DNA of 32,297 bases from Blastocatellia bacterium (GTDB taxonomy: Bacteria; Acidobacteriota; Blastocatellia; HR10): NCBI GenBank assembly GCA_035573895.1, contig DATLZR010000061.1, forward strand, positions 1-32,297, in the 5' to 3' direction. Below, one piece after another: positions 2,198 through 13,658 of this stretch; position 1 is the first letter of the stretch; every line of letters starts with the position of its first letter. Under the pieces are notes generated by a model, which had not been told where the DNA came from, did no database searches, and saw only the letters and a program-made list of their open reading frames with translations. The position numbers were made by a program, and so were the translations under genes.

Positions 2198-2468
2198 GAC
2201 CATTTTCAAGAAGCCGGGCGATCCCCTCCCGAGCACAGCCACCTGAATTACACCTGGGGGTGGAGCGAGAAATCTCGGAAGGCAGAGTAACCGTTGGTTC
2301 CCCGGCACACGGCGCAGGTTGAGAACTGCTGGAAGCGCCCACCGCCAGAGCGGGCTTGCGAACGCTGGAAAGATACGGGCTCCCAGGTGAAGTGTGCTGA
2401 AAATGGACGAGATCGAAGCTCAATGCGACAACCTCGCCGGGAGAGCCCGCCTTGCATCAAAGTGGCTT
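2198..2468. repeat. convergent spacer with degenerate intergenic repeat
   Basis: The spacer between the convergent hutH and terC genes has no gene. It contains diverged GC-rich motifs (for example AGCGCCC near 2334 and AGCGGGCTTG near 2349, then a second AGCCCGCC near 2443) that also occur, in the same order, in the htpX-terC spacer. I read it as a decayed member of an intergenic repeat family. No clear U-tract terminator is visible for either gene. Confidence 0.4.
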
Positions 2469-3551
2469 TCAGGTCTGCGAGCGTGGACCTTCGGGTTCAC
2501 AGTCAGCTGCCGATTCTGAAGGAGCCGACGCTGCCCTCGCACGCCGGAGTATTCCCGGTGGGAGGACCAGCGAGAGAATGACCGAAATAGCCAGAATCGT
2601 TCCGATGATCATCAGCGAGAGCCCGATGGGAAACATCCCTCCCCAGAGCCGATTGAGCCAGACCATTTTCATCCCGACAAATACCAGGATCAAGGCCAGC
2701 CCGTACTTCACCAGGTGAAACCGGTGGATGACCCCTGCCAGCAGGAAATACATCGCACGCAGTCCGAGGACGGCGCAGACGTTTGAGGTGAAGACAATCA
2801 GCGGTTCATCGGTCAACGCGAAGATCGCCGGAACCGAATCCACGGCGAAAATAACATCGGTCATCTCAACGAACAACAGCGTGATGAACAACGGCGTGGC
2901 GTGCCAGCGACCACCGATCCGGACAAAGAATCTCTGTCCCTGAAGTTCATTCGTCACTGGAACGTGGCGACGAAAGAACCTCAGAAGCGGATTCCGATCG
3001 GGTTCCACCTTCATCTCCGGGGCCAGGAGCATTTTGATCCCGGTGATGATCAGGAACCCGCCGAACAGAACGACCACGAGGTGGTACTGCATGAGTGCTG
3101 CGCCCAGAGCGATAAAGATCGCTCGGAAAATGAGCGCCCCGAGAATGCCATAGAAAAGAACCCGATGCTGATACCGATCAGGGATGCCGAAGAACTGGAA
3201 AACGACGACGAAGACGAAGATATTGTCAACCGCCAGGGACTTCTCGACCACATATCCGGTGAGGAATTCAAGTGCTGACTGTCGTGCCGCACGGGCGGGA
3301 TCGAAACCGGGGATGGCTAGCAGCCGCTCATCTTGAGCGAAAGCCTCCAGAGCGTAACGATAGAGCCCGTAATTCACCAGCAGGGCCAGAACCACCCAAA
3401 TGACGCTCCAGATGGCGGCTTCGCGGAAGGACACAGCATGAGCCGTTCGGTGAAAGATACCGAGATCAATCAAAAGGAGCACAAGAACCAGCGCGGTGAA
3501 GACAGCATAAACCCACCAGTACTCGGCGAAAGGAAAGAGCGAAATATCCAT
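2469..3551 (-). CDS. TerC-family integral membrane protein (Alx/MeeY-like)
   Basis: A 360-residue polytopic membrane protein of the TerC family, members of which export Mn2+ or supply it to secreted enzymes. Visible family features are the first helix ending in LLLIDLGIFHR (Asp29), the acidic helix VVEKSLAVDN (101-110) and EMTDVIFAVDS (229-239), whose carboxylates are thought to line the metal path. About eight hydrophobic segments can be counted. ATG 3551 is preceded by AGGAGA at suitable distance. The gene lies 146 bp downstream of htpX on the same strand, and the Mn2+-type riboswitch ahead of htpX could control both genes. The C-terminal tail (last 25 residues) is hydrophilic and low in conservation. 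The transported substrate is inferred from family and riboswitch, not shown by the sequence alone. Confidence 0.92.
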   Translation of the reverse strand: MDISLFPFAEYWWVYAVFTALVLVLLLIDLGIFHRTAHAVSFREAAIWSVIWVVLALLVNYGLYRYALEAFAQDERLLAIPGFDPARAARQSALEFLTGYVVEKSLAVDNIFVFVVVFQFFGIPDRYQHRVLFYGILGALIFRAIFIALGAALMQYHLVVVLFGGFLIITGIKMLLAPEMKVEPDRNPLLRFFRRHVPVTNELQGQRFFVRIGGRWHATPLFITLLFVEMTDVIFAVDSVPAIFALTDEPLIVFTSNVCAVLGLRAMYFLLAGVIHRFHLVKYGLALILVFVGMKMVWLNRLWGGMFPIGLSLMIIGTILAISVILSLVLPPGILRRARAASAPSESAADCEPEGPRSQT

Positions 3552-3584
3552 GGCGATGTTCTCCTGAAAGGCGCTCGCGTCGTG

Positions 3585-3676
3585 AGATCACCCAAGGAGG
3601 CGAGCCAGCGGACGGGAACCCGCCTGTGGGAGCGCCCTGGCAAGCGGGCTTGAGCACGCCGGAGGCGTGCGCTACC
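3585..3676. repeat. GC-rich intergenic hairpin repeat
   Basis: Lies between htpX and terC. It holds a perfect 7-bp inverted repeat, GCACGCC / GGCGTGC (3654-3660 and 3664-3670), next to GGGAGCGCCCTGG and AGCGGGCTTG. The core GGGAGCGCCC recurs at 16327-16336 (plus) and near 23546-23556 (minus), and a diverged copy sits after hutH. Imperfect stems and placement only between genes suggest a small non-autonomous repeat family. A role as an RNA hairpin between htpX and terC messages is possible. Confidence 0.5.
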
Positions 3677-3697
3677 GATCCGCTGGTTTCGCCATCA

Positions 3698-4555
3698 CTA
3701 TCTGATGCGCAATCCGGCCATGGCCTCGAGCCGGGCGATGCGCTCTTCGGTCGAAGGATGCGTGCTGAATAGTTGAATCAAGCCGCCGCCGGAAAACGGA
3801 TTGATAATGAAGAGATGGGCCGTCGCCGGTGACCCCGACATCATCGGCACCTTCCGGCTCCAGGCTTCGATCTTGCGTAAGGCGCTGGCCAGAGCCAGGG
3901 GATTTCCCGTCAGTCGCGCCCCGGACTCGTCGGCGAGGAATTCCCGCGAGCGCGAAATAGCCATCTGAATGAGTGTGGCGACAATCGGCGCCAGGATCAC
4001 GCCGAGGAGTCCCGCCACTGGGTGGCTGCCCTCATCGTCATCGGAAGATCGGCCTCCGAAGGCAGCTCCCCACATCGCCAGATTCGCCAGCATGCTCAGG
4101 GCTCCGGCAATGGTGGCCGTCACCGTCATAATCAGCGTATCCCGATTCCGGATATGTCCCAGTTCATGAGCCAGCACTCCGGCCAGCTCCTCCCGTGTGA
4201 GCAATTGCAGGATGCCTTCGGTCACCGCCACGGCAGCATGCTGGGGATTTCGACCGGTGGCAAACGCATTGGGAGCCTCTTCCGGAATAATGTAGACCCG
4301 GGGCATGGGCAACCCGGCCCGCGCTGCCAGGTCTCGCACCACAGCATAAAGCTCCGGCGCTTCGGACTCGGTGACCTCGTGGGCTCCATACATACGCAAC
4401 ACAATCCGATCCGAAAACCAGTAGGCGCCAAAATTCATCACGGCGGCCATCACCAGCGCCACCATCAATCCGCCCTGACCGGCAATGGCATGGCCGATCC
4501 ATAGAAGCAAAGCGGTGAGCAGAGCCAAAAGCATGACCGTCTTGATCTGGTTCAT
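3698..4555 (-). CDS. htpX: HtpX membrane zinc metalloprotease
   Basis: A 285-residue M48-family protease that degrades misfolded or damaged membrane proteins, complementing FtsH. Two hydrophobic segments lie in the first 47 residues and two more around residues 145-165 and 180-200, as in HtpX. The zinc site is HELGH (His130, Glu131, His134) with the third ligand Glu205 in REFLAD. The frame can be extended to GTG 4579, but ATG 4555 is preceded by AAAGGAGGA at ideal spacing, so I start there. It is the first gene of a minus-strand unit with terC and is preceded by a yybP-ykoY-like riboswitch with its own terminator, so synthesis probably depends on Mn2+. Coupling this protease to metal sensing is the unusual point. 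Confidence 0.96.
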
Positions 4556-4582
4556 CGCAGTTCCTCCTTTTTCCCTCACAAA

Positions 4583-4621
4583 GAAAAAGACCTTTTGCGC
4601 TCGGACTGTCGCAAAAGGTCT
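4583..4621 (-). terminator. intrinsic terminator in htpX leader (riboswitch expression platform)
   Basis: A perfect 12-bp inverted repeat, AGACCTTTTGCG and its complement (4610-4621 and 4588-4599), with a 10-base loop, followed on the minus strand by TTTTT. It sits in the leader 28 bases before the htpX start, not after a gene, so it must act as an attenuator. Its 5' arm contains the GACCTTT that forms the 3' side of the closing helix of yybP-ykoY aptamers, which is the usual switching arrangement. Confidence 0.88.
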
Positions 4622-4733
4622 CGATCCGTCAGCCCCCCGGGCTTTCGCTGGTGAACCGGATCGCTTGTTTTTCTGGCGATCGTGTTGACGGCCTCACCAG
4701 ACCCACAACGGGGCGATCTACTCCCCTTCTTTG
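4612..4733 (-). promoter_or_regulatory. yybP-ykoY-type Mn2+ riboswitch aptamer upstream of htpX-terC
   Basis: Read on the minus strand, the htpX leader has the landmarks of this riboswitch in order: AAGGGGAGTAG (minus strand, ending at 4718), GGCCGTCAACACG, a variable stem-loop whose halves GGTCTGGTGA / TTCACCAG can pair, GGGCTGACGG, and GAGACCTTTTG just before the terminator. The closing stem would pair AAGG near the 5' end with CCTT near the 3' end; the same CCTTTTGCG is the terminator's 5' arm. Known members bind Mn2+ and turn expression on by blocking termination. They usually precede Mn exporters or TerC genes; here htpX comes first and terC second. The call is by eye, without a covariance model. 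Confidence 0.82.
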
Positions 4734-4742
4734 TGAGCGCCT

Positions 4743-4772
4743 ATTCTAGCATCTTCTTTGACCCCGTGACAA
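4743..4772 (-). promoter_or_regulatory. sigma70-type promoter for the htpX-terC leader
   Basis: On the minus strand TTGTCA (4772-4767) and an extended -10 TGCTAGAAT (hexamer 4748-4743) are separated by 18 bp. The predicted start, about 7 bases downstream, lies just before the first conserved bases of the riboswitch, which supports the assignment. Confidence 0.7.
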
Positions 4773-5141
4773 GCACCTCCCAAAGGTACCAGGCTACTTT
4801 CGCGCTCAATGGGGCGTGTGGGATCGCAGCATGTGGAGTGCCCCAGTCAGTAACCCACTGGGAGCAGCCACTTTCACCGGGTTTCGCCATGCCGAAGGCA
4901 TGCGGCCCATGATGCGGCGAACGATAACGATCTGGGTGCGAATGCCCACCGGGTGGGCCAATGCTCTCAGTGGAGTGGGGAAATATTCCCACCAGGACGC
5001 CACCCCTGATGCCCTCGTAAAGGCTGCGTCTTCGGAAAGAGCCCGGGAATACAACCACTTAGCTCACCTTTAGTTGAGAAACAGCGGTCCACCCGAGCGC
5101 GAGGAACCGAATTTGCTTAGTCCGGGGGCAGAGGGGAGTGG
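4773..5141. other. divergent intergenic region, no gene
   Basis: This spacer separates the htpX leader from the divergent sensor kinase gene. Short open frames here on both strands lack motifs. A small hairpin, ATGCC GAA GGCAT (4889-4901), is present. GAGGGGAG at 5131-5138 is the ribosome binding site of the kinase. I see no convincing plus-strand promoter and no palindrome like those at 8479 and 8548, so I cannot tell from sequence whether the kinase-regulator pair controls itself. Confidence 0.5.
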
Positions 5142-7040
5142 ATGAAGGCGCGACCAATTCATCGGCGGTTAAACGTGCGGATTGGCGGAGGGCTGTTGGC
5201 AGCCCTGCTTGTAGTGGGCATTCCGTTTTTCGTCTTCTTCTATCGCTTTCACCAGGAGCAACTGATCGAAGGCCTGAGGCGGTCCTCCGCCGACGTCAGC
5301 CAACTGATTCTGATGAATCTGGAACGGCGCATGGTGGAGGCCCAGCCGCATCTGCTGGATGAAGACGTGCGACAGCTTTCCACCTATGCCGGGATCGAGC
5401 GGATCGCCATTCTCAATGCCAGCGGCGAGGTCAAGGTGACGTCGGATCGTGAGCTTGATGGTCGTATTTTCACACTGAGAGATCCCTCCTGTCGCATCTG
5501 TCATGACGAACAATCGCCATTGCCCTGGCAGACGACCATCATTGAGGAAAGTCGCCGAGGCCGGGTCTTCCGCAGCCTGATGCTTATTGCCAACCGTCCG
5601 GCTTGCTTCGACTGTCATTCGTCGAGCCATCATCTCAACGGCATTCTTCTTGTTGATCTCTCAATGGCCCAAGCGCAAAGCCAGCTTCGGTCGGGGATGC
5701 AGAAGATGCTCGGCCTGGCAGCAGTGATGGTGGTGGTCACCATTGGTGTTCTCAGCGGGCTGATCAACCGGCTGGTCGTTCGCCGGATTAACCGTCTCTG
5801 GCGCACGATGATGGCGATCCGTCAGGGGAACCTTGGCGAACGCGCCCAGGTGGATGGTCAGGATGAAATCGGCGAACTGGCCGAGAGCTTCAACCGAATG
5901 ACAGCACGGCTGGCCGAATCCGTGCGGGAGATCGAACACCACAAAGAGTATCTGGAGAGCGTCATCAACAGCATCGAAGATGAAATCGTCGTCGTGGACC
6001 GTGACCTCCGCATCGTGACGGCCAATACGGCCTATCTGCTCAAATGCGGCCGGCGGAAACAGGACATCCTGGGACAAGCCTGCTTCCTCGTGTCGCAGGA
6101 TTCGTCCGTGCCCTGCAACCAGTCGCTCGCCGAACGGTGCCCGGCGCAGGCCACATTCAAGACCGGCCGGGTGAATAAGGTCCTCCACCGGTTTGTTACT
6201 TCCGACGGACAGGAGCGATACATCGAGATCTATTGCTATCCCTTGCGGGATGATGCCGGACAGGTCTTCCAGGCCATCGAAGTCAAACGCGACATCACCG
6301 AGCGGCGTTTCCTGCAGGCCCACCTGAGTCATTCGGAACGGCTGGCGACGCTCGGCCTTCTCGCCTCGGGGATCTCGCACGAGATTAACAATCCTCTGGC
6401 TTCGATCATCGCCTGTACGGAGGGGATTCAACGACGGCTCCTGACTCGGCCTCCTCACGCGGCGGCCATGACGGCCGAGGAATTCCAGGAGTACCTCGAA
6501 CTGATTCACAAAGAAGCCATGCGGGCCAAGGCGATCACTGATCGCTTGCTCATTCTCTCCCGTCGTTCCCAGTCCCCGACCGATCTCGTGTCGCCCAATC
6601 AGTCTCTGTCGGAGACACTCTCTCTGCTCCGCTTCCAGGCGGAGGAGCGAGGAGTTGAGATCATCGAAGAGCTGGATCCGCGCGTCCCTCACATCCGAGC
6701 AGACGATCCGGGGTTGCGCCAGGTCTTTCTCAATCTTCTGCTGAATGCGCTGCAAGCCATCGAGGGACCGGGACAAATCCGGGTGCGGACGTCAGCCGAG
6801 CCCGAAAGTGTCGTGATTTCTATCGAAGATACCGGTTGCGGGATTGCTCCCGAAGACCTCCCGCGAATCTTCGAGCCGTTCTTCTCCCGGAAGGCTGGAC
6901 GAGGAGGAACAGGTCTGGGTCTGTTCATCTCCAAAGTTCTGGTCGAGCAAATGGGGGGAACGATCACGGTTCAGAGCCAGCCGGGAGAAGGTTCGTGCTT
7001 CGTCATTCGGTTTCCTCTGGAGGATACAACCGATGCGTGA
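5142..7040 (+). CDS. membrane sensor histidine kinase with periplasmic CxxCH motifs
   Basis: A 632-residue sensor kinase. Order: TM1 (about 15-34), a periplasmic domain (35-186), TM2 (187-208), HAMP (209-262), PAS (about 268-385), HisKA with phospho-acceptor His413 in ISHEINNP, then an ATPase domain with N-box NLLLNALQAI, DTGCGI and GRGGTGLGL. The periplasmic domain carries two c-type haem motifs, CRICH (117-121) and CFDCH (155-159), the second followed by GILLVDLS typical of sensory folds. Haem attachment is inferred. The PAS domain has five cysteines (302, 314, 325, 333, 365), which might bind a second redox cofactor. The gene overlaps the response regulator by 8 bases, so the two are a cognate pair; the haem sites and the cytochrome operon downstream point to sensing of redox state or a small ligand in the periplasm. 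Confidence 0.93.
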   Translation: MKARPIHRRLNVRIGGGLLAALLVVGIPFFVFFYRFHQEQLIEGLRRSSADVSQLILMNLERRMVEAQPHLLDEDVRQLSTYAGIERIAILNASGEVKVTSDRELDGRIFTLRDPSCRICHDEQSPLPWQTTIIEESRRGRVFRSLMLIANRPACFDCHSSSHHLNGILLVDLSMAQAQSQLRSGMQKMLGLAAVMVVVTIGVLSGLINRLVVRRINRLWRTMMAIRQGNLGERAQVDGQDEIGELAESFNRMTARLAESVREIEHHKEYLESVINSIEDEIVVVDRDLRIVTANTAYLLKCGRRKQDILGQACFLVSQDSSVPCNQSLAERCPAQATFKTGRVNKVLHRFVTSDGQERYIEIYCYPLRDDAGQVFQAIEVKRDITERRFLQAHLSHSERLATLGLLASGISHEINNPLASIIACTEGIQRRLLTRPPHAAAMTAEEFQEYLELIHKEAMRAKAITDRLLILSRRSQSPTDLVSPNQSLSETLSLLRFQAEERGVEIIEELDPRVPHIRADDPGLRQVFLNLLLNALQAIEGPGQIRVRTSAEPESVVISIEDTGCGIAPEDLPRIFEPFFSRKAGRGGTGLGLFISKVLVEQMGGTITVQSQPGEGSCFVIRFPLEDTTDA

Positions 7041-12025: not shown

Positions 12026-13408
12026 ATGATCACAGCCATAGCCCGGGTGACGATTTCGTCAAGCGAGAGCGCTCGCCTTCACCTTCGCCGTTCCCGCAAC
12101 CCGTCATCGCGGGGGGACGGATGTGGGATCCGAGCGACTCCTGAGGTATCCAGTACTCGCGAGCGGCCCCGGACATGGTTCCGATCGGTCATCATCGGCC
12201 TCCTTTGTCTTTGCCCAACGGTCGTATCGGCGCAGAAGAAGGATTCCTGCTGGGAGTGTCACTCGGCTTTAGAGGGACCTCTGCTTGACCCGGTGACCCG
12301 GATGAACACCGACATCCACCGCCAGCGGGGGTTCTCTTGCGCCGACTGTCACGGGGGTGATCCGGCAACGGATGATCCGACGGAGTCAATGAATCCCCGC
12401 AAGGGGTTCATCGCGCGGCCTGCGCCAAAGGATGTTCCCGCCTTTTGTGGACGCTGCCACAGCAGCGCCGACCTGATGAAGAAATTCAATCCGGCTCTGC
12501 GAGTGGATCAGGAGCGGGAATATTTCACCAGCGTTCATGGCAAGCGCCTCCGCGCAGGCGATACGAAAGTAGCCACCTGCATCGCCTGTCACGGGGCTCA
12601 CGGGGTGCGCAAGATCAACGATCCGCTCTCGCCAGTCTATCCGTTAAATGTGGCGGAAACCTGCGCGAGCTGTCACGCCAAGGCCGATTACATGGCGGGG
12701 TATCGCATCGCACACGACCAGTATGACAAGTACAAACGGAGCGTCCATGCTCGAATGCTCTATGAGCAGCAAGACCTCTCGGCTCCCACGTGCAACGATT
12801 GTCACGGTAATCACGGAGCGACGCCTCCCGGCGTTACCTCCGTGGCCAACGTGTGCGGTCAATGCCACACCCGCCAATCGAGCCTCTTTCAGAACAGCCC
12901 GCACAAGGCGGCTTTCGACGCCCTGCAACTGGCCGAGTGCACCCAGTGCCACGGCAATCACGACGTCCTCTCGCCCCGCGATGACATGCTCGGCGTGACA
13001 CCACCGGCGGTCTGTATCACCTGCCACCGCGAGGGAGATCGTGGGTATCAGATCGCGGAAAAAATGAGGCAGCGCATCGAAGAGCTGAAGCGACGATTGC
13101 ACGAGGCCACCGAGATTCTCGACCGGGCCGAACGCGCCGGCATGGAGGTCAGTCGGGCGAAATTTGAGCTGAACGAGACGCGCGATGCCCTCACGCACGC
13201 CCGCGTCCTCGTTCATTCGTTTTCGCTCGATGAGCTGGAATCGGTCATCGGCCCCGGCCTCCAGCAAGCCGACCGCGTCTATCGAGCCGGACAAGCGGCG
13301 CTCGCCGAACTGAGCTTCCGCCGGAAGGGCCTGGGTGTGTCGCTCTTTTTCATCCTCTTTCTCGCCCTTCTCGTTTACCTCAAGATCCGGGACCTCGAAG
13401 GACGCTAG
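12026..13408 (+). CDS. nonahaem cytochrome c with C-terminal membrane anchor
   Basis: About 460 residues. Nine CxxCH motifs lie at 75-79, 105-109, 141-145, 185-189, 213-217, 256-260, 277-281, 305-309 and 330-334, several in the form CHGxHG. A long, charged helical region (about 340-430) follows and the chain ends in one membrane helix (436-452) with a short cytoplasmic tail. The signal sequence is [17 protein letters not shown] (54-70), so the first 50 residues are an unusually long, Arg-rich lead. AAGGAGG at 12011-12017 supports ATG 12026, yet a later unlisted start cannot be excluded. As the last gene of the bc operon it may take electrons from the Rieske/cytochrome b pair and carry them across the periplasm. 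The terminal acceptor is unknown. Confidence 0.9.
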
Positions 13409-13658
13409 CGCGACTCCCCTTCGGCGAGAAGAGGCGATGGGATAGAGCGCCGGCCGTCTCCCCCTTTTCAGCCTTCGACAAAATTCAACCCTGGTCTTCC
13501 CCCTCCTGTGCGTCATCGGAGACTTGATGCTCCGTGTGATGTCCTTCACGGCATCATGAGGAATCCTGAAAAAGGAGAGTTCGCGCAGAAGGGCCGTCGG
13601 CCTTGACCAGCCGAAGCGAACATGTTAAAGAGTGCGGCGGCATACGGGGCGAATCATC

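Follow-up and report, generated by a model that had tools for sequence, protein, structure and literature searches.

A predicted Mn2+-class (yybP-ykoY) riboswitch in the leader of the membrane protease gene htpX, with terC second, in Acidobacteriota

Introduction

Mn2+ riboswitches of the yybP-ykoY class are known, and Mn exporters and TerC proteins are taken to be their usual targets. The locus analyzed here raises the question of why an RNA of this kind would stand before htpX, a gene for a membrane protease, with terC in second place. It lies in a 32,297-nt stretch of DNA from a Blastocatellia bacterium (contig DATLZR010000061.1; hereafter the window), for which an earlier note had proposed such a riboswitch and, from the gene order, a tie between manganese and protein quality control in the membrane. 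In B. subtilis, TerC proteins metalate exported proteins, FtsH is essential in their absence, and HtpX is among the proteins co-purifying with MeeF (PMC10550928); in Vibrio, a Mn-induced terC resides behind this riboswitch class (PMC13274385). In the mechanism described for the class, Mn2+ is bound by N7 of an invariant adenosine, loops L1 and L3 dock, helix P1.1 is stabilized and the terminator is suppressed (PMC6754395, PMC11087558).

Results

The htpX leader runs on the minus strand from 4772 to 4575 and combines a promoter-like site, a yybP-ykoY aptamer and an intrinsic terminator (Table 1), its fold being more stable than those of 200 out of 200 shuffled sequences (z -4.0). The promoter-like site was the sole match in a scan of positions 2300-5200, for which 1.0 match is expected by chance; judged from its position, transcription would start at about 4737-4735. 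The start codon of HtpX is the ATG at 4555, preceded by AAGGAGG, which corrects the earlier note. The encoded protein belongs to the HtpX (M48) membrane protease family (Peptidase_M48, PF01435, 1.9e-36; HEXXH motif present; equivalog PRK03001 at 414 bits, cut-off 369), and its neighbor is a TerC protein (PF03741, 1.1e-49; TIGR03718 at 380 bits, cut-off 246). Scanning of the gap between the two genes, which measures only ~24 nt at the related locus L006, returned no promoter-like or terminator-like match; both genes may be co-transcribed from the riboswitch promoter. A 105-aa open reading frame on the minus strand (4741-5058) gave no match in a Pfam search.

Table 1. Coordinates of the leader elements and genes in the window
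Feature	Position	Strand	Details
Sigma-70-like promoter	4743..4772	-	TTGTCA 4772-4767, 18-nt spacer, TAGAAT 4748-4743, TG before second hexamer
Mn2+ (yybP-ykoY) riboswitch aptamer (predicted)	4611..4732	-	match to canonical model R1, covariation
P1.1 switch helix, 5' strand	4725..4730	-	AGAAGG; six contiguous pairs with 4618-4613
Loop L1, 5' side	4719..4724	-	GGAGUA; partner side GAGA 4622-4619
P1.2	4715..4718	-	GAUC; pairs with GAUC 4626-4623
P3.1	4700-4689 with 4658-4648	-	P3.1 and P3.2 together span 4648..4700
Loop L3 region	4682..4690	-	CGUCAACAC; CGUCA invariant in all htpX-type copies
P3.2	4681-4676 with 4664-4659	-	inside P3.1; covariation
P1.1 switch helix, 3' strand	4613..4618	-	CCUUUU; common to terminator 5' arm
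Intrinsic terminator	4584..4621	-	AGACCUUUUGCG / CGCAAAAGGUCU and U-tract; overlaps P1.1 3' strand
Shine-Dalgarno sequence of htpX	4563..4569	-	AAGGAGG
htpX, membrane zinc metalloprotease	3698..4555	-	285 aa, HELGH at residue 130
htpX-terC gap	3552..3697	-	146 nt
terC, TerC/Alx-family metal homeostasis membrane protein	2469..3551	-	360 aa

On the minus strand, the class landmarks follow each other in the correct order, GGGGAGTAG (4726..4718), CGTCA (4690..4686) and GAGACCTTTT (4622..4613), and in the RNA GGGGAGUAG (4726-4718) and GAGACCUUUU (4622-4613) flank a branched fold. Among the landmarks listed in the earlier note, 'CTGACG' (~4632) falls within the fourth-helix region, which is variable, and is no conserved feature. 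The aptamer possesses all helices of the class, namely P1.1, P1.2, P3.1 and P3.2; P1.1 covaries across copies, and 15 of the 17 pairs in P3.1 and P3.2 show changes on both sides. L1, in which GGGGAGUA faces GAGA or AAGA, is invariant among the htpX-type copies (set A1), and the matching columns are invariant in the canonical set A2. The CGUCA of L3 corresponds to the published UCA41 / ACA48, and A4686 matches the adenosine that binds Mn2+ there (A41 in L. lactis, A48 in X. oryzae; PMC6754395).

The covariance check that the earlier note had put forward failed in its literal form: the Rfam model of the class, RF00080, did not match the window element even at E 10. In the same library, however, E. 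coli mntP reached only 41.6, short of the cut-off of 45, and nothing was reported at E 10 for the leader of E. coli alx; in the control alignment, the 3' half of the model misfits the GAGACC strand. Because alx was missed and mntP remained below the cut-off, the silence of RF00080 is uninformative and does not refute the assignment, and the model was dropped as arbiter. It overlooks the htpX-leader subtype and even one established member of the class; surveys with this model (Rfam 15; 177 positions) will undercount the class.

We gathered canonical members by a sequence pattern from Bacillota and Pseudomonadota (a reversed control pattern returned almost none), and 35 of these were aligned with E. 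coli mntP and alx, with pairs set by hand and no Acidobacteriota included, to give model R1. With R1, the element in the window scored 31.1 bits (E 1e-7 within the window) and came out as the top match in the 3.9-Mb genome (E 1.2e-5), the window copy having the lowest R1 score of its set (31 bits versus 32-47 for relatives). In the reciprocal test, model R2, built from htpX leaders, gave a score of 38.7 bits (E 7e-8) to the alx leader of E. coli; the 92.5 bits that it assigns to the window copy are not independent, since R2 contains this copy. R1 also matched weakly at 13394-13424 (13.2 bits), a site that was rejected as it does not contain the aptamer core, and weak Rfam matches near the region to the raiA-hairpin and RcsR1 were regarded as chance.

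When 34 distinct copies of the Acidobacteriota type were compared, both partners had changed in 23 of 29 pairs without loss of pairing, and 94.2% of cells were paired versus 74.7% in shuffles (0 of 500 as high), in an alignment that was fitted to the model and is biased towards structure to that extent; in slid controls, pairing dropped from 94% to 29-46%. The leader might also be conceived as a mere constitutive terminator or attenuator that resembles the aptamer by chance, a reading with which the silence of RF00080 and the chance frequency of terminator-like sites would agree; but an R1 match obtained independently, covariation that no shuffle equaled and recurrence of the element before htpX/terC across many genera leave it a very small probability, and R1 match and covariation refute it in practice. 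Together with the overlap of P1.1 and terminator described below, these two lines of evidence bear out the riboswitch claimed before htpX, and the htpX-leader RNA is, by its sequence, a further member of the known Mn2+ (yybP-ykoY) class.

From class membership, Mn2+ is the predicted ligand of the window aptamer. The docked state of the class is stabilized by Cd2+ too (PMC6754395) and a streptococcal member has been reported to bind Ca2+ (PMC9495176), so that the aptamer might mainly sense another divalent metal (e.g. Cd2+, Ca2+ or a mixture). We consider this improbable in view of the complete conservation of the Mn2+-class metal-site residues and of the usual neighbor gene, whose TerC product is of the type that handles Mn.

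The terminator arms AGACCTTTTGCG/CGCAAAAGGTCT form 12 bp including the outer A-U pair (4621..4588), with an inner hairpin of -15.7 kcal/mol, the tail UUUUUCUUU and a U-tract reaching to 4584. As the earlier note had stated for this 12-bp hairpin, its 5' arm is common to the closing helix of the aptamer: it includes the 3' strand of P1.1 (4618..4613) and thereby constitutes a platform for competition between P1.1 and terminator. In nearly every htpX leader, the next hairpin has a 5' arm beginning at GACCUU; U-tracts are weak in L029, L078 and L161.

A separate feature of the window is a perfect 11-bp helix, CUCACAAAGAA / UUCUUUGUGAG (4737-4727 with 4585-4575, minus strand), between the predicted transcript start and the sequence just past the terminator. 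It would enclose the whole switch and was matched by 0 of 2000 shuffles of both end segments; a counterpart, sought by eye in L002 and L003, was not apparent. Such a helix could shield mRNA produced by readthrough, or it could act as a competitor of P1.1.

With this anatomy, an htpX-terC operon is probably under transcriptional ON control by this Mn2+-class riboswitch, the ON polarity being predicted from the arrangement of P1.1 and terminator. At low cytosolic Mn2+, the nascent leader would form the terminator and transcription would halt before htpX. At high Mn2+, L1 and L3 would dock around a Mn2+ ion held by A4686, and the P1.1 helix stabilized in this way would tie up its 3' strand, such that the terminator is blocked and RNA polymerase continues into htpX and terC. 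TerC might then export Mn2+ or deliver it at the membrane, and HtpX might break down membrane proteins after damage, mismetallation or stalling at the translocon.

After removal of duplicates, the element precedes htpX at 12 loci, the window and 11 others that are nearly all from Acidobacteriota (L002, L003, L005, L006, L007, L009, L025, L026, L029, L034 and L161). L029 is binned as Bacillota, yet its HtpX groups with Acidobacteriota, and it may be mis-binned. On the same strand downstream, terC follows at nine of the 12 (window, L002, L003, L005, L006, L025, L026, L034, L161), with no terC within the downstream DNA examined at L007, L009 and L029. The arrangement with htpX first and terC second behind the riboswitch is conserved, and the element recurs in htpX leaders of relatives. 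Among eight relatives with an HtpX at least 66% identical, six carry the element, L008 retains a degraded remnant and L004 is without it; relatives with a more distant HtpX carry none. Close htpX relatives without the element are L004, L019, L023, L024 and L027, and in the sister genus, which belongs to the same family and has a more distant htpX (~61% identical), the element was not found in the two genomes listed. The L008 leader has kept the terminator arms and lost GGGGAGUAG, which may be a case of Mn control lost in nature.

Of 396 evenly sampled Acidobacteriota genomes, 27 carried the element, at 31 places, where the first gene was terC (12), htpX (7, including the window) or another gene (12); when the gene after the first is also counted, terC is nearby at ~22 of the 31. 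At L003:2399-2497 (= L021:3899-3997), a second Mn aptamer directly follows htpX, yielding a cluster with two Mn switches, and precedes a DUF454-like ORF, a Zn-ribbon ORF and terC. Further acidobacterial aptamers (L162, L164, L151, L152, L154, L160, L170, L172) stand before genes for TerB-like, UspA-like, DUF2490 and small secreted proteins, which are possible additional Mn-response genes.

In Negativicutes (Bacillota, the class of Propionispora), R1 matched in 104 of 200 genomes, with up to eight matches per genome. Among the places read, the order riboswitch, YkoY-type terC, htpX on one strand occurs at 12 loci (L122, L175, L176, L178, L181, L195, L196, L197, L203, L214, L230, L255), and at three others (L223, L259 and L081, the latter from Propionispora) htpX comes first behind the Mn riboswitch and terC is not the next gene. 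The aptamers of these loci are of the canonical GC type, and recent transfer of the acidobacterial copy is therefore unlikely. In a quick HtpX tree with weak inner support, riboswitch-linked copies cluster in Acidobacteriota and Negativicutes, but several gains or losses are required. In Chloroflexota, an aptamer of low score (18.8 bits) precedes htpX in one MAG (L078); htpX was found at none of the 29 other Chloroflexota loci read, and we make no claim for this phylum.

Could htpX be an incidental passenger, inserted between terC and a genuine riboswitch that serves terC, with no Mn-related role of its own? Many acidobacterial copies precede terC alone, and most operons with Mn riboswitches in Bacillota and Chloroflexota do without htpX, which gives this reading some weight. 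We nevertheless regard it as rather unlikely: in each of two phyla a Mn riboswitch stands before both htpX and terC, with the gene order reversed between the phyla, htpX leads without terC as the next gene at the three Negativicutes loci, the L003/L021 cluster devotes one of its two switches to htpX, and HtpX is among the proteins that co-purify with B. subtilis MeeF (PMC10550928). The recurrent pairing of terC and htpX behind Mn riboswitches would agree with a shared membrane task.

Other canonical Mn riboswitches in Bacillota precede genes for LemA, PspA/IM30 and an NfeD1b membrane protease-like protein (L117, L112 and L119), all of them linked to membrane stress. Tandem Mn aptamers ~70 nt apart were seen at L247:280-600 (G782:C6) and also at G763:C11:16073-16324; at L247, each has its own terminator and a UPF0016-type exporter gene lies downstream.

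Discussion

The recurrence of the switch with htpX and terC in relatives, and in reversed gene order in a second phylum, suggests that Mn stress and the clean-up of membrane proteins are regulated together. The connection drawn in the earlier note between membrane quality control and Mn is plausible, given the co-purification of HtpX with MeeF, the need for FtsH in the absence of TerC proteins (PMC10550928) and the terC-htpX pairs of the second phylum. A functional partnership of HtpX and TerC is what we infer from the gene linkage, supported by the published co-purification. In a wider and more tentative proposal, to which we give somewhat less than an even chance, Mn2+ riboswitches of at least two phyla would run, besides Mn export, a membrane-protein quality-control module in which HtpX and TerC act together at the secretion machinery and HtpX is turned on when Mn2+ is in excess, with LemA, PspA/IM30 and NfeD1b, encoded by first genes in single Bacillota lineages, taking part in the same response.

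The conserved riboswitch-htpX link appears to be unreported within the open-access literature searched, where a single paper (PMC10550928) contains both Mn riboswitch and htpX, unconnected; most subscription papers lay outside this search. The presence of a membrane protease gene in first position, and its conserved association with terC across two phyla in either gene order, lends genetic support from outside Bacillus to the idea of a cooperation of TerC metalation and membrane proteolysis.

Compared with the Mn2+ riboswitch class represented by RF00080, the window element shares L1 (GGGGAGUAG/GAGA), the Mn2+-binding adenosine of L3, helices P1.1, P1.2, P3.1 and P3.2 and the overlap of P1.1 and terminator; it differs in P1.2, where GAUC/GAUC replaces the usual GC(N)/(N)GC, in the silence of the RF00080 model and in having a protease as first gene. 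Among the named controls, the leader of E. coli alx, which encodes a TerC-family Mn exporter, is nearest in architecture (AUCGUCAuuACGAU...AUCCGGU), but alx is a single gene without htpX, and the fourth helix is longer in the alx leader. The Negativicutes loci (L175, L203, L214, L230, L255 and others) unite the same three components, riboswitch, terC and htpX, as the window, but in reverse gene order, with a TerC of YkoY type and a canonical GC-type P1.2. In Vibrio, mneA and terC likewise include a Mn-induced TerC-family exporter under this riboswitch class, the other gene being an exporter there versus a protease in the window (PMC13274385). Finally, B. subtilis MeeF and MeeY are linked physically and genetically to the membrane quality-control proteases FtsH and HtpX, in line with the pairing discussed here, whereas that link is at the protein level and a riboswitch is found on meeY only (PMC10550928).
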